Origin: Deltaproteobacteria bacterium
Lineage (GTDB): Archaea; Thermoplasmatota; Poseidoniia; Poseidoniales; Poseidoniaceae
Assembly: GCA_028344335.1 (NCBI GenBank)
Contig: JAOMAZ010000001.1
Coordinates: forward strand, 75,468 to 133,750
DNA length: 58,283 nt
Direction of reading: 5' to 3'
Positions 20,746 to 30,866 of the stretch are shown here, piece by piece. The notes under the pieces are model-generated. The model was not told the DNA's origin. It saw only the letters and a list, made by a program, of their open reading frames with translations, and made no database searches. Within the stretch, counting starts at the first letter, position 1; each line of letters opens with the position of its first letter. The position numbers and the translations under genes were made by a program.

Positions 20746-21795
20746 ATGGCAACAGAAAAGGGCCGCGACCTGAAACCACGCCAACGTGGAAATCGGCCTA
20801 TTTTAGAAAATGAAGAATTACGAGATGTCCTAATTGCAGAAGGGAGTGGTTGGAGGGTCGAGCCTCCAATCTCAAGCCGCCTTTGGCAAAAATCAGCCCT
20901 TGGAAAAACCATCAAAGGAGGATCTGTGCTGCTTTCACCTGCTGAAGCCCTGTTTTGCCATTGGCACAGAAACTTGGCACTTCCAAAGAACTTCATGACA
21001 GAAATGCTTGCTTCAAACCCAAGATTCTTACATGAGGCGGTGGCTATTGAGGCGGTTCGTTCTGGTGGAGAAATATTGTCAATTTGTACTGAAAATTTAC
21101 ACCATGGGAACCTTCGATGTGAAAACACATGGGGTATGAGATGGGAGAGAACCTCCCACCCCTCAAAAGATCCACCTGTTTCGCAAGTACGATGGTTCAT
21201 CTCCTCTGACGATTTGGATTTGGCTGACCTACAATTATGGGTTATGAAAGTAGAAAAAGTGGGCCAAACACCAGAAGTTGTTGTTGTCGATTCTGAATAT
21301 GGTTCTACAATCTATCGCCTATCATCACCAGACCCTCGCGGCAAATTAAGGCCTCCTTCTGAAATACAAATACCTGACTTGGGCGGAGAGCAGAGCGGCT
21401 TCATCCAATATGTAAATTGGCCATTACCAAATATTGGAGTACCTCAAGCCGGAGGGATTAGTCTGGATAATACCGAGAAAGAATGGTTGGAGAATTACCT
21501 CCAAGGAACCGAACATATTGGTGATGCATATCTCCTAAATGAATTATTAGAGCGTGGACTTATTGCAAGACCTGGTTTCAAATATGGTTGCAAATGGAGA
21601 GTATATGATGATGATATCTCAAAAGTCCATGCACCTTGGTTGATGTCAACTGAATCCGAAATGCCTCGCTCTTGGGAAGAAGCCTGCTTACGGGCTCGCT
21701 TATCAGCAGGCGTCAACAAAAAGTGGGTTTGCATTCAACAAAGCTCTGATGGTGCTTCATTCCTGTCTATTGAAAGGGTCTTCTTGGGGCGCTGA
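20746..21795 (+). CDS. endA: tRNA-splicing endonuclease EndA
   Basis: 349 aa. The C-terminal catalytic block is clear: LNELLERGLIARPGFKYGCKWRVYDDDISKVHAPWLM with Tyr280 and His295, and the Lys in VNKKWVCI (325/326). These three form the RNase triad of archaeal and eukaryotic splicing endonucleases. The N-terminal half (SGGSVLLSPAEALF-like segment at ~60-75, then MTEMLASNPRFLHEAVAIEAV) looks like a degenerate copy of the same fold. The length fits the two-repeat homodimeric type. The enzyme cuts bulge-helix-bulge motifs in intron-containing tRNAs to leave ends that RtcB joins. It diverges from the winged-helix gene across about 90 bp, and its last 39 bases overlap the convergent M6 protease gene. 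Confidence 0.9.
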   Translation: MATEKGRDLKPRQRGNRPILENEELRDVLIAEGSGWRVEPPISSRLWQKSALGKTIKGGSVLLSPAEALFCHWHRNLALPKNFMTEMLASNPRFLHEAVAIEAVRSGGEILSICTENLHHGNLRCENTWGMRWERTSHPSKDPPVSQVRWFISSDDLDLADLQLWVMKVEKVGQTPEVVVVDSEYGSTIYRLSSPDPRGKLRPPSEIQIPDLGGEQSGFIQYVNWPLPNIGVPQAGGISLDNTEKEWLENYLQGTEHIGDAYLLNELLERGLIARPGFKYGCKWRVYDDDISKVHAPWLMSTESEMPRSWEEACLRARLSAGVNKKWVCIQQSSDGASFLSIERVFLGR

Positions 21796-23883
21796 GAATA
21801 AGGCATTTGTTGGGTTTAGAAAATCATCAACACTCGAAACTGCCACAGGCTGTGGAGGGATGATTTTCTGTTTCTTCTCGATTCCAAGAACCACCCAAAG
21901 AGCCGCTAATAAACAAACGATTAGAGTTAAACTGGCTGGGTCACGGAAAGTTCTGATTACATCTGCTGTTCCAGCAATCGCTTCTCCAGTAACTTCAACT
22001 TCAACTCTCTCTACCTTACCCAAGTCATCAACAATGATGACTTCTCCCCTTGCCAGCATTCCAGGTGTTAGAAGACCATTTGGTTCCACCGTTAGGGTGA
22101 TTGATGAGCCTTCTTGTATGACTACGCTTTCTTGAATAGTCGCCACTCTTGAGAGAGGGCCTTCGACAAATAAGTCCACAGTTCTACTACCATCACCTTC
22201 GATCTCTAATTCTATAAAAATCTCGGTAGATATACTGGTTGAAACGTCAGCTTGTGTCAGGCTTGGCAATACTCTATTGAAATGAGTTGACCAAGGGATT
22301 GCAATATCCCAAGTTGTATTTCCGCAACTAATGAAGCCAGTTAGTAGACCATAGTTACCTGCAGAGACTTGACTATCGAATGATAATTCAACTTGCTTCC
22401 ACGACTCCTCCTTGACTACCGTGGTCGAGTCAATGATAGCTATACTTCGACCGTCATTACTGTTCATGGAAACTTGAGGTTGGCATTCTTGAGTTGATTT
22501 CATGGCAAAGAAAAAAGATTCCCCTGGTAGGGTAGTTAATCCACCAGAAGGTGGCAATACCTCAAATTCTTCTTCACAGGTAGGCATTGTCAAGTTAAGC
22601 CCCCATAATTCACCTTGCATTTGGAAAACCACTGCGGTCCATTGGACTAAGCGACCATGTGAATCCCTAACTTGAATGCCACTTGCGCCAAATGTATCAC
22701 CTAATTGGAAAGTGTCACCTTCGCTACCTTTGTCTGCTGCTCGCATCAATTCATCTCCACCATCGGCCTCTATGATTCGCAGCCAAGGAGAATCTGGGTC
22801 ATGATTGACTACATTGTTTTCGATGTCGCCGGTTGCTAAATTTTGGGCGCTAACTAAGAGGCCTGAGCCTGGGAGTCTAGCATCGAAATTATCTTTAGTA
22901 CGGTGTTCTATCCAAAGCCATTCGTTTTCTGCTAACGGAATACGGAGTGCTGAACCTGAATTTGACATCGGTGCCAAAGATTTCATCGCTGCTTTACATT
23001 CGCCACCTTGTGAATTCCAAGAAGAAATTTCGTGGTTTCTTTCAAGACCTAGCAATTCCATTGTCGCAGCCATTGGCAGAGCAGGTATTGCTCCATTTCC
23101 ATTCCAATTACCACTAGCCATGATATCCCAGTCTCCTACTCCATACCAGTTTTTTGAAACCGTTTCATCATGCACAGCATAAAGGTCTAAGGCACCAATC
23201 TGATGAAGCATTTCGTGAATAATTGTACCCCTATAGTTTGAAGAGCGCAAAGATGCCATGGTATAGTGGTGAGCCACAAGTCCATCCTTCAGATCTATCG
23301 CCTCTTGAAGTGGCCCAAAGTGGCTCCAAATTCTGGAAGTAGCACCTGAACCATCTTCTTGTGGCCTTGCGGTGTGTAAGATTAGCAACCGGTCAACATT
23401 ACCGTCCTTATCCAAATCAAATGCAGACCAATCTATATTTGAGGCTAATTGAGTAATTACTTCTGCTGCTAAGGCGGCAGGTCCTCCTTCGACACTACCT
23501 ACATCACGGGTGTTTTCAGTATCGTAGCCATATGAACTAGAAGGAAGAGAAGCACGAATTATTTCAGAATGGTAGGTTAAGTTGAGTGTGCTTTCCCCCC
23601 CACTCATCGCTTCGATATATCCTACAGCGCCATTATTACCGTCAAGAAGGCCCTTAGCCTGAATAATATCACGGCCATTTCCACTCGCCTCATCGCTAAA
23701 GTCAACGACTACAACAAGCCAATTTTCTTGTTCTTGAATTCCAACGATAGGAGGTTCTAATTCTGAATTAGCATTTTCCCGAACTTCCTCAAACCAAGTT
23801 TGAACGACTTCTGGGTTCGACCATCCGACAAGACCTAGGATGATGAAACCCAAGGCGATTGGGAGGGCGATTTTTGCCTTCAT
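21757..23883 (-). CDS. Secreted, membrane-anchored M6-family metalloprotease
   Basis: 708 aa from the ATG at 23883 (MKAKIALPIALGFIILGLVGWS); the upstream ATG at 23910 would put nine extra residues before the signal segment. An N-terminal hydrophobic signal is followed by the peptidase domain, with WLVVVVDFSD and, near residues 218-236, HEMLHQIGALDLY. That is the HExxHxxGxxD zinc motif of immune inhibitor A-type peptidases. A Ca-type loop DLDKDGNVDRLL precedes it. WYGVGDWDIMASGNWNG is the met-turn-like family motif. Beta-rich C-terminal domains and one membrane helix at ~655-675 (SLTLIVCLLAALWVVLGI) end in a short tail with KKQK. It should hydrolyse extracellular protein while held at the cell surface. 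Cotranscription with tatC upstream is likely (42 bp gap). Confidence 0.9.
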   Translation of the reverse strand: MKAKIALPIALGFIILGLVGWSNPEVVQTWFEEVRENANSELEPPIVGIQEQENWLVVVVDFSDEASGNGRDIIQAKGLLDGNNGAVGYIEAMSGGESTLNLTYHSEIIRASLPSSSYGYDTENTRDVGSVEGGPAALAAEVITQLASNIDWSAFDLDKDGNVDRLLILHTARPQEDGSGATSRIWSHFGPLQEAIDLKDGLVAHHYTMASLRSSNYRGTIIHEMLHQIGALDLYAVHDETVSKNWYGVGDWDIMASGNWNGNGAIPALPMAATMELLGLERNHEISSWNSQGGECKAAMKSLAPMSNSGSALRIPLAENEWLWIEHRTKDNFDARLPGSGLLVSAQNLATGDIENNVVNHDPDSPWLRIIEADGGDELMRAADKGSEGDTFQLGDTFGASGIQVRDSHGRLVQWTAVVFQMQGELWGLNLTMPTCEEEFEVLPPSGGLTTLPGESFFFAMKSTQECQPQVSMNSNDGRSIAIIDSTTVVKEESWKQVELSFDSQVSAGNYGLLTGFISCGNTTWDIAIPWSTHFNRVLPSLTQADVSTSISTEIFIELEIEGDGSRTVDLFVEGPLSRVATIQESVVIQEGSSITLTVEPNGLLTPGMLARGEVIIVDDLGKVERVEVEVTGEAIAGTADVIRTFRDPASLTLIVCLLAALWVVLGIEKKQKIIPPQPVAVSSVDDFLNPTNALFSAPQEDPFNRQE

Positions 23884-23925
23884 GATATTATCGGCTGAAG
23901 GGCCAACCAATAGAAGGGTTCTGCT

Positions 23926-25188
23926 TTATTGTTGGTTTATGTAAGCAAATGCATCGTTGGGATGTAAAACCAAGCCCCATGGAAATTTATCTGAAAGGGT
24001 CAGGTTTCCATCGAATCCAACCTCCATAATACGTTCTTTTTGTCCTGATTTGGGCCATGGGTCTACCATTGATGCCAAAGCCAACTGAAAATCAATCTCC
24101 CTCAATTCACCATCAGGCCTTGCAGCTGCTATATTCAAAAGAGATAATCCACGTAATTCGATGCTCAAGGAATCTAAACTTTGCTTCATATGTTCAGGTA
24201 GTGGACTACCATCACATCCCGTAATAATTAGATCTGTCAAGCGTTGTATTTTCGCTGATGCTAAAAGGTCATTTCTTTCATGGGGGTTTAGACAAAGAGC
24301 ATTTGCACTACTAGTAGCCATCAAATTTGGTGTACTTGAGGAGAAATCTTTGGCGCAAGCACCGGCACAAGCACAGGATACTACTGCGATTCTTCTCAGG
24401 GAGCCTTCAGAATCCATTATACCCTCACCATGTGGAATGTTTTTTGATGACATATTTCGATCTTTAAATGGAGATATACAACTCTCAACGAGAAGCCAGC
24501 AAGACATTATCGAGAGAAGGCGGATTCCTGTTAAGTGAGATGGAATGGACAACCACACCAAAGCCAATGAAAAACCATGTATGCGAATGCGGAACCATGT
24601 TAGAGAATTGGCATCCAATAATCCAACCACACCAGCCATCAGTGCAGACATCATCGCCAATAATACAATTAATTCAATTGATAATACCGCAAAGGAAATC
24701 CTCAAGATTTCCACCGCATCATATGTTGCAACAACTCCTGATTCACTACTCCCTCGGTGAGCCCAAAGCATAACCGTTGGAATTAGGTATAGCATTGTCA
24801 ATAAAAGAATGCTAATGCTAACAATACCTCCTATTAGGATAGTGCTACCCAACCAATGCCTCTCTTGAGGCAGCATTCCTGGACGTGTGAAATTTATCGC
24901 TTGCCAACAAACTAATGGGATGATGGTTATCAAACCAAGAAGCAATGCTGACATCCAACGTAGAGAAACCCATTCTGCGGGAGCAAATACGGAGAGGCAT
25001 TCTGATACTTGGCAAGGCGATATCCGGATTAAGTACCATGCAAGAACTGAGTCGATGAAAAACATCCAGATGACCGACGACACAGTCAAGGCAAATAGTA
25101 ACAAACCAAGTCTGTTCAATAATTCATCTAAGTGGCTGCTAATTGGACGAACTAAATCTCCCGCTAAGGATAAACCGTCAGCCATCAC
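23926..25188 (-). CDS. tatC: TatC translocase with cysteine-rich C-terminal extension
   Basis: 420 aa, against about 250 for a normal TatC. Residues 1-250 are TatC: SSHLDELLNRLGLLLFAL is the N-terminal hallmark. SVFAPAEWVSLRWMSALLLG and INFTRPGMLPQERHWL carry the conserved F.PxE and FxxPGLxxxER segments, and about six membrane helices can be counted. From ~258 a ~160-residue soluble domain begins RRIAVVSCACAGACAKD, with later Cys in NALCLNPHERNDLL and LIITGCDGSPLPEHM. The order (strand, C-x-C, ~30 residues, LC/MC-x-P, helix, strand, C-x-x-P) resembles the N-terminal domain of HdrA. TatC binds twin-arginine signals of folded, often cofactor-bearing, exported proteins. The fused domain is unexpected, and its role as a redox or Fe-S module is inference. 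Confidence 0.85.
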   Translation of the reverse strand: MMADGLSLAGDLVRPISSHLDELLNRLGLLLFALTVSSVIWMFFIDSVLAWYLIRISPCQVSECLSVFAPAEWVSLRWMSALLLGLITIIPLVCWQAINFTRPGMLPQERHWLGSTILIGGIVSISILLLTMLYLIPTVMLWAHRGSSESGVVATYDAVEILRISFAVLSIELIVLLAMMSALMAGVVGLLDANSLTWFRIRIHGFSLALVWLSIPSHLTGIRLLSIMSCWLLVESCISPFKDRNMSSKNIPHGEGIMDSEGSLRRIAVVSCACAGACAKDFSSSTPNLMATSSANALCLNPHERNDLLASAKIQRLTDLIITGCDGSPLPEHMKQSLDSLSIELRGLSLLNIAAARPDGELREIDFQLALASMVDPWPKSGQKERIMEVGFDGNLTLSDKFPWGLVLHPNDAFAYINQQ

Positions 25189-25224: not shown

Positions 25225-26190
25225 TTAGAGCATTTGTTCAACCTTTAGTGGAGCCTTGGCTTGTGCATAGGTGCGATACAATCCATAACCTGCCCAAAGT
25301 GCTAACATTCCAACCAGTAAGTTCCAACCCCAAGGTTTGGACGTTTCCAATGTCCAGAAGAAGAAGTAGGAAAGAGCTGCAAAGAGTATGCCGCGGCGAA
25401 TTGCTTGAGGAACTGCCAAACGCATATCTAGGTTATCTGGTCCTCCAGCAAACTTTTTTTGGTAGAATTCCCCCTGGAATACTGCGGCAATCAACAAGAT
25501 AGAGAGGGTTGTCCAATAGTAGAGATTTCCTTGAGCAAAGAAATTGTCAGCTAGTTCTTTTTGCTCTGCAGCCTTAACTGCCTCAGGGTCAACTTCTTGC
25601 TTGAATAATTCATCATAATCTCCAACTGAAATTGTGCGCAGAGATAACTCCTCGCCCTCCGAAACCATTGCACCATCAGGGGCTGCGATGCTGAATGTCA
25701 AGATATTCCAGTGGTCGCCCTCGTCAAAAGTACCATCCCCGTTAACCGCATTTCCTACTAATGAAAAGTAGATTGCACCTACATCTGAAGATGGCGCAGT
25801 CCATGGAACTAGCCAATCATTTCCTGGTTTTGATTGAGAAATCCCATCGGGATTATCCTCTGCTTCCCTTGTACCTTGTTCGTCCAATGGAGTGAATGAA
25901 CCAACTCCAAAATCAGTCATCAAGAAACCGCCCTCGGAGTTTGATTGGTGCTGTAATGAAATTGTGAAATTGTAAGTATCTCCAACAGTATAGGCCTGGG
26001 GAACTCCGCTAATGGAGACAATAACTGCAACAGAGGGCGTTCCACCACCATGGCAAGTACAGCCAAACTCCACCGTAGGATCAGCACCATTGCTGACAGG
26101 TGGGCCACCGCTAGAGCCAAATGCAGGGATTGCCAAGAGGGCAACACAAGCCAATGCCATGATGATACGAGGAACTGTTAGGCGCATCAA
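25225..26190 (-). CDS. Membrane protein with extracellular CTCH-containing domain
   Basis: 321 aa. Signal peptide (residues 1-25, RIIMALACVALLAIPAFG), then FGCTCHGGGTPSVAVIVSISGVPQAYTVGDTYNFTISLQH. This layout, a Cys-rich CHGG motif followed by a beta domain with GxxYNFTI, resembles the Reeler-like / choice-of-anchor V exodomains often seen with CxxCH motifs. Here the spacing is CxCH, so a standard covalent c-type heme site is not present. Three membrane helices end the protein: YYWTTLSILLIAAVFQ, GILFAALSYFFFWTL and WNLLVGMLALWAGYGLY. It sits upstream of tatC and the M6 protease on the same strand. Transfer of electrons or metal binding at the CTCH site is a guess. Not otherwise recognised. 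Confidence 0.7.
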   Translation of the reverse strand: MMRLTVPRIIMALACVALLAIPAFGSSGGPPVSNGADPTVEFGCTCHGGGTPSVAVIVSISGVPQAYTVGDTYNFTISLQHQSNSEGGFLMTDFGVGSFTPLDEQGTREAEDNPDGISQSKPGNDWLVPWTAPSSDVGAIYFSLVGNAVNGDGTFDEGDHWNILTFSIAAPDGAMVSEGEELSLRTISVGDYDELFKQEVDPEAVKAAEQKELADNFFAQGNLYYWTTLSILLIAAVFQGEFYQKKFAGGPDNLDMRLAVPQAIRRGILFAALSYFFFWTLETSKPWGWNLLVGMLALWAGYGLYRTYAQAKAPLKVEQML

Positions 26191-26331: not shown

Positions 26332-27231
26332 ATGTGGCCGTTTCCAAAAAAGGAAAAAATGGAGTGGTTAAGGCTCGACGATAGCCGCAAGGACCAATAT
26401 TCTCAAAAATTATATCGCCGTATGCTGTATGATAGAGAACCAATTTTGATAACCATGGAAGACAAATACAAAGCACGGGAATTAGTCGCCTCAAAAGGAG
26501 TTTGCAAACTTCCCGAACTTCTTTGGTGGTCTTGCCAAACACCAGTGAAAATACCATGGGATGAATTACCTGATAGATTTGTGATCAAAACCAACCATTG
26601 GTCTGGAGATGGCATCTATTTCATCAATAACTCAAATGAAAAATTGAAGCAAATTGCTGTTGACATGACGATTGGTGAATTATACCGAGTTATTGAAAAC
26701 GGTATAGACCACAGAGGAAAGAAAGTCAGTCATGCTTGGATGGAGAAAAAGTTAACTCGCCTTCTAAAGAAAAAATACGCAAAAGCGCTTGAATGGGGAA
26801 CCCAAGAAATCAAACCCGCAGGGGTAATGATAGAAAAAATGCTGATGGTTGATGGTGCCTTACCTGATGATGTGAAGTTTCATGTATTCCATGGCAAAGT
26901 CGGATGGATACAAATCGATGTTGGAAGGTTCACCGAACATCGCCAATCGATATACAATGTCGACGGTAGTAGGATTGAGCAATCTAATCCTAAATTCCCT
27001 GGTATTGAGGAATTAAAGCACCTCCATGAAAGGTTTTCACCACAATATGTGGAAGAGATGGTGCGGGTTGCAGAGAAACTATGTGAAGATATAGATTATA
27101 CTCGTTTAGATCTATTTGATATCGATGGGGAATTATATTTTGGAGAGTATACTTGCTACCATAATGCAGCCCATCCACAATCGGATGAATGGGAAGAACT
27201 GGGGGGGAGACTTTGGAAGACAGATTACTAG
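26332..27231 (+). CDS. TupA-like ATP-grasp protein
   Basis: 299 aa. The sequence follows the ATP-grasp TupA family: LITMEDKYKARELVASKGV, then LPDRFVIKTNHWSGDGIYF for the nucleotide-binding loop. VMIEKMLMVDGALPDDVKFHVFHGKVGWIQIDVGRFTEHR is the central acid-and-Lys strand, and DYTRLDLFDIDGELYFGEYTCYHNAA the C-terminal Mg-binding segment. Members ligate carboxylates to amines, in bacteria during teichuronopeptide or exopolysaccharide synthesis. The cytoplasmic form has no signal. Its last 43 bases overlap the hydrolase gene, so the two are probably translated together. A role in surface polysaccharide modification is likely but unproven; the DegT aminotransferase just beyond strengthens this reading. 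Confidence 0.85.
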   Translation: MWPFPKKEKMEWLRLDDSRKDQYSQKLYRRMLYDREPILITMEDKYKARELVASKGVCKLPELLWWSCQTPVKIPWDELPDRFVIKTNHWSGDGIYFINNSNEKLKQIAVDMTIGELYRVIENGIDHRGKKVSHAWMEKKLTRLLKKKYAKALEWGTQEIKPAGVMIEKMLMVDGALPDDVKFHVFHGKVGWIQIDVGRFTEHRQSIYNVDGSRIEQSNPKFPGIEELKHLHERFSPQYVEEMVRVAEKLCEDIDYTRLDLFDIDGELYFGEYTCYHNAAHPQSDEWEELGGRLWKTDY

Positions 27232-28124
27232 AACGCCAAGAACTGTTCTCTTTACTAGGAGATTTGCCAGATTTTTCAGTGCCCATAAAATCTAAGCTTC
27301 AAAGTGAAGAAAGTCATGCAGGCTTGAGATGCCAACGTTGGCAAATTGAATTTGAAGGTATTGAAGCGGTGCCGATATTAGTGACCTTACCAGAAGGTGA
27401 TGGGCCCTTTCCAGTGGTACTATACAACCATGCACATGGAGGTAATTATGCACATGGAAAGGAAGAACTACTAACGGGGAGGGCGGCGATTCTCAACCCT
27501 CCGTACGGACAAGTTCTGGCCGATTTAGGAATCGCGGCTGTAGCAATCGATACTTTCGTATTTGGTGAAAGGAATCATGATAATGAGGCTGCTACTTTCA
27601 AACGCATGTTATGGAATGGTCAAGTCATGTGGGGAATGATGCTTTTTGATAACTTAAGGGCGCTGGATTTTATCGATGAACACCCTCTTCTAGACCATGA
27701 TAGAATCGCCACATTGGGTTTATCGATGGGTAGTACCATGGCTTGGTGGTGTGCAGCACTTGATGATAGAATCAAAGTCTGCATTGACCTATGTTGCCTA
27801 ACAGATTTCCACGACCTGCAGGAGACAGATGGACTGAATGGTCATGGAGTTTATTATTACATTCCAAATCTTTTGAAGGAAGGTTGGAGTACTTCACGAA
27901 TCAATGCAATGATTGCCCCGCGAGCGCGTCTGGCATTGGCGGGAGACCTTGACCCTTTGACTCCTACAGTTGGACTTGAGAGAATAGATAAGCATCTCAA
28001 AGAGGTTTATGCGGCACATGGAAAATCAGAGTGCTGGAAGATGCTCCGCTATGCTGACATCGGGCATATTGAAACTTCAGAGATGAGAAGTGAAGTGCTT
28101 GCTTTTTTAGAAAAGTTTCTCTGA
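27189..28124 (+). CDS. Alpha/beta hydrolase (dienelactone hydrolase-like)
   Basis: 311 aa from the ATG at 27189, overlapping the ATP-grasp gene by 43 nt; a TTG at 27213 would cut the overlap. The fold markers are PFPVVLYNHAHGGNY (oxyanion strand), the nucleophile elbow GLSMGST (Ser near 177), an acid in LALAGDLDPLTP and His in DIGHIETSE. A long N-terminal segment is Glu-rich. No signal peptide is seen, so it is cytoplasmic. The family includes carboxylesterases, peptidases and acetyl xylan esterase-like enzymes; the substrate cannot be read from sequence. Pairing with a TupA-like ligase suggests action on a surface glycan or an acyl intermediate (inference). Confidence 0.87.
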   Translation: MGRTGGETLEDRLLERQELFSLLGDLPDFSVPIKSKLQSEESHAGLRCQRWQIEFEGIEAVPILVTLPEGDGPFPVVLYNHAHGGNYAHGKEELLTGRAAILNPPYGQVLADLGIAAVAIDTFVFGERNHDNEAATFKRMLWNGQVMWGMMLFDNLRALDFIDEHPLLDHDRIATLGLSMGSTMAWWCAALDDRIKVCIDLCCLTDFHDLQETDGLNGHGVYYYIPNLLKEGWSTSRINAMIAPRARLALAGDLDPLTPTVGLERIDKHLKEVYAAHGKSECWKMLRYADIGHIETSEMRSEVLAFLEKFL

Positions 28125-28151
28125 AAGCCTAAGAAAATAATCAATTCAGTG

Positions 28152-29384
28152 TCAATCCTTGATAATAAAAGCCAGAACCTCGTATATCACCTGTGCAATA
28201 ATATCCATGTGAGAAGTGTTCAAATGCGGTTGTAAAGATAAATCGCAAGCAAATTCAATCGCTTCAACTGTTGCTGGCAATTCCACTGCCTCAATATCTT
28301 TGAGGAATTGCCATTCTCTGAAATCACGAGCATTGCGCTGAACCCCAAATATCTGCATATCAATTCCTTCCAAGGACATTACTTCGATGAAGTAATCGGC
28401 TTGTTTTCTTGTTAGTCCTCGCAAGTGGAATTGCATGGTATCACAAAACATCTCTACTTCAGGGAAGGGTTTTGGAATCTCAATATTTGGATGATTTTCT
28501 AAAAGTCCTTCTAGATAGTGATAGTTTTGCCTGTGGATTTTATTAATTTCTATCAGCCTTGGTATTTGAGGGCGCAACAAAGCGGCACACACTTCAGTCA
28601 TCCGCATCGAATATCCCGGAATATGGTTTTGTAGAGTATCCATCAAATCCTCATCAATTCCAAAATGCCGGTTCCATCGTTCCTCATATGAGCCAGCATA
28701 GAGTAATGCCTTACCTGCAATTTCAATATCATCGGTTGTAAGAATACCTCCCTCTCCAGATGAAAGACCCTTGCTAGATTGTGTTGAAAAACAAGCAATA
28801 CGGCCGAAATTACCAAGTTTTACCCCATTCCAGAAGGTCATATATGCATGCGCACAATCTTCAATGAGATATAGGTCATGACGCTTAACCACTGCCATTA
28901 TCGCATCCATGTTTGGTACATGCCCTCGCATGTAAGAGAGAAGCAAAACCTTAGCCCCTGATTCCTTGACCTTATTTTCAAGGTCCTCTGCATCCAATCC
29001 CCATTCCAAATTAGATTCAACAAAAACTGGTTCGGCTCTTGCATGATGAATCGCCGAAGGTACAGCGGTAAAGGTGAAACCATTGGATAACACCTTGTCG
29101 CCGGGCTTGACTCCTGCAATATTTAGGGCGATGAACATAGCAGCCCCACAAGAATTTACTCCTAATGCAAAGTTACTGCCGAGGTGGGTAGCGAATTCCT
29201 TTTCAAACAAAGACACATGCGAATCTTCTGCCTTTTTGGGTTGATAACGATACATCATCCCTGCACGCATCGTGGCTACAGCATCTTCAATTCCAGATTC
29301 AGGAACCGCTTTGAAAGCCTTAGAATTAAAATCAACGATTGATTCGCCGCCTTCAATTACCAATCTTCTATCGGAATCAGACAT
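28152..29384 (-). CDS. DegT/DnrJ/EryC1/StrS family aminotransferase
   Basis: 410 aa. Typical of PLP sugar aminotransferases: HLGSNFALGVNSCGAAMFIALNIAGVKPGDKVLSNGFTFTAVPSAI, then YLIEDCAHAY with the Asp that binds the pyridine nitrogen. The Lys for the Schiff base is in STQSSKGLSSGEGG, and YSMRMTEVCAALLRPQ is the conserved C-terminal block. The family transfers an amino group from Glu or Gln to a keto-sugar nucleotide for glycans. The gene is convergent with the hydrolase (27 bp between stops) and upstream of pntB by strand, with a 54-bp gap to it. With the TupA-like gene it suggests an aminosugar or surface-glycan pathway, though other enzymes of such a pathway are absent here. Confidence 0.9.
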   Translation of the reverse strand: MSDSDRRLVIEGGESIVDFNSKAFKAVPESGIEDAVATMRAGMMYRYQPKKAEDSHVSLFEKEFATHLGSNFALGVNSCGAAMFIALNIAGVKPGDKVLSNGFTFTAVPSAIHHARAEPVFVESNLEWGLDAEDLENKVKESGAKVLLLSYMRGHVPNMDAIMAVVKRHDLYLIEDCAHAYMTFWNGVKLGNFGRIACFSTQSSKGLSSGEGGILTTDDIEIAGKALLYAGSYEERWNRHFGIDEDLMDTLQNHIPGYSMRMTEVCAALLRPQIPRLIEINKIHRQNYHYLEGLLENHPNIEIPKPFPEVEMFCDTMQFHLRGLTRKQADYFIEVMSLEGIDMQIFGVQRNARDFREWQFLKDIEAVELPATVEAIEFACDLSLQPHLNTSHMDIIAQVIYEVLAFIIKD

Positions 29385-29438: not shown

Positions 29439-30866
29439 TCAGTACTCCTTGATTGCAGTATTGAGGGCCGACATCATTGCTTTTCCGTCTCCAAACAGCA
29501 TCATCGTCTTATCCATGAAGAATAAGTCATTATCGACACCAGCATAACCTACGGATAAACTGCGCTTGATGATAACTATTGAGCGTGCTTTGTCGACATC
29601 CAAGATTGGCATTCCACCCAATGGTCCTTCGCCGCTGCGGGCTGCAGGATTGGTGGTATCGTTAGCACCGATGACAACTGCTAAGTCACACTCTGCAAAC
29701 TCGGAGTTTATTTCATCCATCTCGATTAACTGCTCGTATGGTACATTGGCCTCAGCGAGTAGCACATTCATGTGACCAGGCATGCGCCCTGCAACTGGGT
29801 GAATTGCATACTTCACTTCAACATCTCTTTCTTCCATTAAATCGGCGAATTCCTTCACCGCATGCTGGCATTGAGAAACCGCCATTCCATATCCAGGGAT
29901 GATAATGCATGTGCTGATTCCATCGCACATCATTGCAACTTCCTCTGGGTCACTGCCAACCTTTGTGCGGGTAACAGTTTCCTTGTCTGAGCCACCAAAT
30001 GACTTGAACAGGACATCGATCAACTGACGGTTCATCGCCTTACACATGATGAAGGTAAGAACTAATCCTGCTGCTCCAACCATCGAACCAGCAATAATCA
30101 AAACATTGTTGTTGATGACGAATCCTGTAAAGGCTGCTGCTACTCCAGAAAGTGAGTTTAGTAGGCTGACTACTACTGGCATATCTGCGCCGCCGATTGG
30201 CAGCACGAAGAGGACTCCCAGTAAGCAACTTGAGCCAACCAGTGCCCAGACCCAAAGTGCGTTTTCTGGTTCTCTAACAGTCATTACAACGAAAGCGAAT
30301 GAGGCAATTAACAGACCCACCTTGACGAAGTTTAGCCATGGAGGACCCCAAGTCGGGAAACGGACCCATTTCTTGGTTAGAGGAATTGTGAAACCACCCT
30401 TCAACTTGAACATAGCAACTAAAGAACCTGTGAGGGTAATCCATCCCACTAAACCAGAAAGTCCGATGGCAATCCAAATAGCCCACAGGTTGAGCATATC
30501 GGTCGGTACTTCGCCAGTCTTGATTCTGGCTAAGACTTCAGATAGTGCTACCAATGCACTGGCTGCTCCACCAAAACCATTGAACAGAGCAACTAATTCC
30601 GGCATACCTGTCATCTCAACCTTAACAGCCAACCAAGCTCCAATTACAGAGCCAAGAACTAGACCACCGACCAATAACTCCCAGCCGATAATGCCGTTTC
30701 CGACTTGCATTTTAACGAGGGTTGTTATGACTGCTAAGAGCATTCCAGCAGAACCAAGTTGATTGCCATAAGGAGCGGTTCTTGGAGAACCTAATTTCTT
30801 AATACCTGTAATGAATAATGCTGCTGAGAGCAGGTATCCAATATCAAAAATAATTGGGTCTACCAT
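29439..30866 (-). CDS. pntB: NAD(P) transhydrogenase, beta subunit
   Basis: 475 aa. The N-terminal half contains about eight or nine membrane helices (YLLSAALFITGIKKL; GIIGWELLVGGLVLGSVIGAWLAV; MPELVALFNGFGGAASALVAL). The C-terminal NADP-binding domain has IIPGYGMAVSQCQHAVKEFADLMEERDVEVKYAIHPVAGRMPGHMNVLLAEANVPY and VVIGANDTTNPAA, characteristic of PntB. KRSLSVGYAGVDNDLFF is the conserved loop near the end. With the alpha subunits it uses the proton motive force to reduce NADP+ with NADH. Its start is immediately adjacent to the stop of the small alpha subunit. No other energy-linked NADPH source is visible in the window. Confidence 0.97.
   Translation of the reverse strand: MVDPIIFDIGYLLSAALFITGIKKLGSPRTAPYGNQLGSAGMLLAVITTLVKMQVGNGIIGWELLVGGLVLGSVIGAWLAVKVEMTGMPELVALFNGFGGAASALVALSEVLARIKTGEVPTDMLNLWAIWIAIGLSGLVGWITLTGSLVAMFKLKGGFTIPLTKKWVRFPTWGPPWLNFVKVGLLIASFAFVVMTVREPENALWVWALVGSSCLLGVLFVLPIGGADMPVVVSLLNSLSGVAAAFTGFVINNNVLIIAGSMVGAAGLVLTFIMCKAMNRQLIDVLFKSFGGSDKETVTRTKVGSDPEEVAMMCDGISTCIIIPGYGMAVSQCQHAVKEFADLMEERDVEVKYAIHPVAGRMPGHMNVLLAEANVPYEQLIEMDEINSEFAECDLAVVIGANDTTNPAARSGEGPLGGMPILDVDKARSIVIIKRSLSVGYAGVDNDLFFMDKTMMLFGDGKAMMSALNTAIKEY

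Follow-up and report, generated by a model that had tools for sequence, protein, structure and literature searches.

A second TatC protein of Poseidoniales archaea bears a C-terminal HdrA_N-like domain with four conserved cysteines

Background

Proteins exported by the Tat system are already folded, and many contain redox cofactors. How their export is matched to the state of the cofactor or of the cell's redox balance is an old question, to which separate proofreading chaperones have so far been the answer. The present locus raises the question of whether a translocase subunit could carry such a module within its own chain. In the window, by which we mean the whole 58,283-nucleotide stretch of DNA that was analysed, a gene at 23926-25188 on the minus strand encodes a TatC, here called TatC2, that is prolonged at its C-terminus by a domain containing four conserved cysteines. 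A first-pass annotation, made from the letters and their translated frames, had proposed that this extension resembles the N-terminal domain of HdrA (HdrA_N), that it is a redox- or Fe-S-linked module through which export could be coupled to the state of the cargo's cofactor, and that no TatC of this kind had been described. We examined these proposals with profile and structure comparisons, surveys of related genomes, phylogeny, and gene neighbourhoods.

Results

The reading frame and the TatC domain

TatC2 is 420 aa long and begins with a GTG that is directly followed by an ATG; the plus strand across 23926-25188 contains many stops, and the minus-strand ORF is a single intact frame in which an extension of ~170 aa continues from the TatC part. 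The motifs that the first-pass annotation had picked out (HLDELLNRL, FTRPGMLPQER, VVSCACAGACAKD, LCLNPHERNDLL, and LIITGCDGSP) are all present in the translation. Residues 18-197 (24598-25137, minus strand) match the Pfam family PF00902 with an E-value of 1.5e-12 and a score of 48.2 bits against a curated cut-off of 25.1, and the six-helix region runs on past this match to about residue 240; all of the aligned members (31/31) likewise match PF00902. Outside residues 18-197, no Pfam family matches the protein. The scores lie far under the NCBIfam TatC equivalog cut-offs (40.8 against 132.7 bits for TIGR00945 and 23.8 against 192.6 for TIGR01912), which marks TatC2 as a divergent TatC.

Signal peptides are recognized in Escherichia coli TatC by H12, E15, F94, Y100, and E103 (PMC13323110). 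We aligned 110 TatC2 homologues, 90 from the family to which this genome belongs (family 1) and 20 sampled from the second family of the order (family 2), which we infer to be Thalassarchaeaceae. H19-E22 of TatC2 (25123-25134, minus strand) correspond to H12/E15 of E. coli, and F100-E109 (24862-24891, minus strand) to F94...E103. H19 and F100 are each kept in 109 of the 110 homologues, the remaining one having an ambiguous letter in either case, E109 is kept in 110/110 and E22 in 88/110, and the equivalent of E. coli Y100 is a leucine in the TatC2 of the window. Given the near-invariance of H19, F100, and E109 and the frequent retention of E22, TatC2 is probably still a receptor for RR-peptides. 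The homologue alignment also revealed two cysteines of the first extracytoplasmic loop, C59 and C64, in C-x4-C spacing (24997-25014, minus strand); the pair occurs in 88 of the 90 family 1 sequences, is absent from family 2, and might form a disulfide on the outer face.

Distribution and descent of the extended TatC

Relatives of TatC2 were found in 150 of 171 genomes of the family, most of them with the extension and most of them 410-490 aa long without internal stops, and the closest belong to Candidatus Poseidoniales/Poseidoniaceae. In a phylum-wide sample, matches do not extend beyond the class. The extended form is found in both families of the order, and the TatCs of a third family in the class are all ~235 aa long. 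Most genomes encode two TatCs, one ordinary (250-310 aa, TatC1) and one of the TatC2 type. The first-pass annotation had named a frameshift joining two genes as a way in which its reading could fail. The idea that an assembly or annotation error of this sort, or a chimera, united two genes has next to no probability and was rejected, since full-length homologues without internal stops recur in many independent assemblies, including the single-contig genome G035, with identical gene order, and nothing was found in its favour.

In the tree, TatC2 forms a clade (100/99) apart from TatC1, and between the two falls the second TatC of the third family, which has no extension; if the rooting is right, this suggests that the duplication of TatC is older than the fusion. 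Some genera of family 2 have a TatC2 that lacks the extension and keeps the same gene neighbours, so these are orthologues from which the extension was lost. One family 1 genome (L072 in G042) has a TatC2 of 256 aa, the whole extension having been lost and the operon kept. An order-wide profile search with the extension matched only frames attached to TatC and returned no convincing stand-alone copy, and the viral contigs searched contained no relative. Elsewhere in the Thermoplasmatota, three TatC genes (L249, L250, and L255) are preceded in frame by ~130-210 residues of open sequence that have no Pfam match and may be N-terminal extensions or merely open sequence.

Homology of the extension to HdrA_N

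The extension consists of a core domain of ~105 residues (258-362; 24103-24417, minus strand) and a variable C-terminal accessory segment (residues 363-420; 23929-24102, minus strand). Scans of Pfam and NCBIfam, both with the single sequence and member by member, yielded nothing significant, and neither did searching PDB sequences with a profile of the extension. The first-pass annotation had counted the lack of an HMM match as refuting its reading, and taken literally the single-sequence library scans give that outcome, but such scans are insensitive here. A match to EspK (E = 0.004) was dismissed as spurious on its score relative to the cut-off of that family, and PF02662 (FlpD/MvhD) matched one member of 55 at an E-value of 0.04.

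Profile comparisons gave a different outcome from the library scans. When 27 HdrA N-terminal domains, taken from HdrA loci of the same phylum, were compared with the core of 93 extension sequences in hhalign, the probability was 82% and the score 33.0, and the CxC and the two single cysteines were in register; scores reached at most 17.6 among 34 decoy families and at most 20.0 among 200 column shuffles. The ranking was reciprocal, in that the HdrA_N profile run over 1912 neighbourhood ORFs placed TatC2 proteins at ranks 1-7, and HdrA took ranks 1-5 when 901 ORFs from the HdrA/FlpD loci were searched with the extension profile. FlpD was rejected as the nearest relative of the extension, with an hhalign probability of 3.4% against 82% for HdrA_N. 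Least open to bias was a scan with the core profile in which 145 genomes were translated in all six frames; there, the best matches outside the order had E-values of 3e-6 to ~0.005 and the 12 of these that were inspected were all HdrA_N domains (12/12). In the joint alignment of the extension and HdrA_N, the four cysteines are the sole invariant columns. By these profile comparisons, homology of the extension core to HdrA_N is established, so that the resemblance originally proposed from the letters stands as a divergent homology, recovered by profile tests and missed by library scans. The sampled Poseidoniales genomes yielded no clear copy of HdrA itself.

Structure prediction is in line with this homology without proving it. 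AlphaFold2, run on residues 254-420 with 20 sequences, returned a model with a pLDDT of 84.5 and a pTM of 0.80 (pLDDT 32 without an alignment), in which the predicted fold is alpha/beta and the CxC, LC, and GC motifs each directly follow a beta strand. A Foldseek search of the PDB with this model gave no match with E <0.001; the HdrA chains 7bkd, 7bkb, and 8rvy were among the top 40, beside generic alpha/beta folds, with query TM-scores of 0.39-0.41 that are the top of the range listed (for 7bkd_A, probability 0.95, TM 0.41, and E 0.028).

Conservation and loss of the four cysteines

The cysteines of the extension are C272 and C274 of the CxC motif (24367-24375), invariant with HdrA_N; C299 of an LC (24292-24294), aligning with the MC of HdrA_N; and C325 of a GC (24214-24216), aligning with its SC/AC/GC, all on the minus strand. 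Conservation in relatives, on which the first reading depended, is borne out: all four are present in 73 of the 90 family 1 sequences and in every sampled family 2 sequence (20/20). Across the 110 sequences, 93 have four cysteines, none has three, four have two, five have one, and seven have none, with the extension absent from the one remaining. Mapped on a phylogeny of the TatC part, the disappearance of the extension or of the four cysteines as a set takes nine changes, and well-supported branches force at least seven of these. Being kept four at a time or mostly lost, never as three, and having been lost repeatedly and independently, the cysteines show a pattern that fits a site working as a unit.

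The accessory segment is missing in most family 2 forms, and all forms that have lost cysteines lack most of it. Several family 1 lineages keep the domain without the cysteines; with others lacking the domain altogether, it is not essential to every TatC2, and its function is dispensable in places. One sub-lineage (L067, L068, L071, and L073-L077) has proteins of 330-356 aa that keep the four cysteines and stop ~10-25 residues beyond the final conserved cysteine region, a near-minimal form of the domain in which the usual CxCxG is altered to CGC/CNC.

Gene neighbourhood

TatC2 lies between a choice-of-anchor V protein upstream (25225-26190, minus strand), with a signal peptide, a GCTCHG motif, and C-terminal helices, and an M6-type metalloprotease downstream (21757-23910, minus strand), with an HExxH motif and an uncertain start codon. 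This order, on one strand and with short gaps, is strictly conserved: the upstream gene is co-directional with tatC2 at 98/98 of the loci where it was found, and the protease gene at 97/97. Twin-arginine signals were sought on both operon partners and no clear or consistent ones were found; the two proteins are thus linked to TatC2 by gene order and are not proven cargo. The GCTCHG of the choice-of-anchor V protein is invariant and, as a CxCH, might bind heme or a metal, with a spacing unusual for such a site; the C-terminal helices of this protein are membrane helices. The pntA-pntB genes lie upstream in most genomes, and pntB, encoding NAD(P) transhydrogenase beta, adjoins the operon in most relatives; here pntB (29439-30866, minus strand) is three genes away. 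In this genus, a TupA-like ATP-grasp protein, an alpha/beta hydrolase, and a DegT aminotransferase (26332-29384) are encoded between pntB and the operon. TatA matches were either on different contigs or distant from the tatC2 operon.

Discussion

Because TatC has its C-terminus on the cytoplasmic side of the membrane, the extension should be cytoplasmic too, and homology to HdrA_N together with conservation of the cysteines points to a putative Fe-S cluster within it. The extension is most likely a cytoplasmic module for an Fe-S cluster or other metal, with a role in regulating or docking cargo at a specialized translocase; the fuller proposal, that TatC2 is a specialized second TatC whose cytoplasmic cluster or metal would control the docking or release of cargo, is the reading we favour at somewhat better than even confidence. 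According to this proposal, an HdrA_N-derived domain would have been gained at the cytoplasmic C-terminus of TatC2 on the stem of the Poseidoniales, its four cysteines would hold an Fe-S cluster (or other metal) just under the membrane beside the twin-arginine signal-peptide site, and the state of the cluster would govern docking or release of a dedicated cargo, such that export through TatC2, unlike that through TatC1, would follow the redox or Fe-S status of the cell. HdrA_N binds its cluster with one ligand from the other protomer (PMC9012536) and TatC works as an oligomer (PMC5102672), so one may speculate that assembly of the TatC2 oligomer itself could depend on the cluster. A stricter version, a translocase gated by the cluster, possibly one shared between protomers, so that cargo leaves only when it is in the right state, we consider possible and rather doubtful. 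Counting against cluster function are the absence of the extension from genera of family 2 and from one family 1 genome, the lack of cysteines in several family 1 lineages, and operon partners that yield no cargo; in addition, one of the cluster ligands of HdrA_N comes from a reductase domain, and TatC2 has no such domain.

The same cysteines could instead serve a structural or docking module, with zinc or disulfides, that holds a partner such as TatA, a chaperone, or a ribosome near TatC2 and performs no redox chemistry. The CxC...C...C arrangement is able to bind zinc, the variable accessory segment and the retention of the domain without cysteines in several lineages would suit a scaffold, and yet the four positions coincide with those of an Fe-S-binding domain and the cysteines disappear as a set, together with the accessory segment; we judge this account unlikely. 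The repeated loss of the cysteines and of the whole extension might also be read as the decay of a fusion relic of little function, kept by inertia. This is quite improbable, in that 93 of the 110 sequences, drawn from two families and elsewhere ~20-40% identical, have kept all four cysteines unchanged, a degree of retention that needs purifying selection. Finally, TatC2 could relay electrons from a cytoplasmic cluster to the outer face, where C59/C64 or the operon-encoded CTCH protein would be reduced, a scheme to which the extracytoplasmic pair in 88/90 of family 1 and the adjoining genes for the CTCH protein and the transhydrogenase lend some colour. We regard it as very improbable: family 2 lacks the pair yet keeps the four cytoplasmic cysteines, TatC has no transmembrane cofactor, and the transhydrogenase is merely a neighbour.

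If the favoured reading of a metal- or cluster-dependent second TatC is right, a core subunit of the translocase with a built-in Fe-S-type domain would be a direct answer, in one lineage, to the question of how export is matched to cofactor state. The locus also shows a methanogen-type HdrA_N domain reused in surface-ocean archaea without a clear HdrA in the sampled genomes. The fusion suggests that folded-protein export in the abundant Poseidoniales of the ocean may be tied to redox or iron-sulfur state. The claim that no such TatC had been described agrees with the literature searched, in that the main texts, including those of a survey of bacterial TatC diversity (PMC3827258) and of archaeal fusions (PMC11237513), describe none; since the search covered main texts and few subscription papers, a TatC with an HdrA_N-like domain is likely, short of certainly, new.

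Among known systems, the extension shares with HdrA_N (e.g., chain A of PDB 7BKD, 7BKB, and 8RVY) the succession strand-CxC, strand-(L/M)C, strand-(G/S)C with four cysteines in register, and differs in being only ~14-21% identical, in having a shorter segment after the CxC, and in being attached to a membrane translocase; the whole HdrA enzyme has FAD/thioredoxin-reductase and ferredoxin domains, and TatC2 has none of these. FlpD/MvhD (PF02662) has a similar cysteine layout and is itself a distant relative of HdrA_N (hhalign 81%). Paralogous TatCs with separate roles in one cell have precedents in the haloarchaeal TatCo/TatCt and the Bacillus TatCd/TatCy, for which we know of no Fe-S-type domain. 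Compared with TatC of PF00902 in general, TatC2 keeps the six-helix fold and H19, F100, and E109 of the signal-peptide site, and is set apart by its divergence, by its cytoplasmic extension, and by its place as a second copy beside an ordinary TatC.
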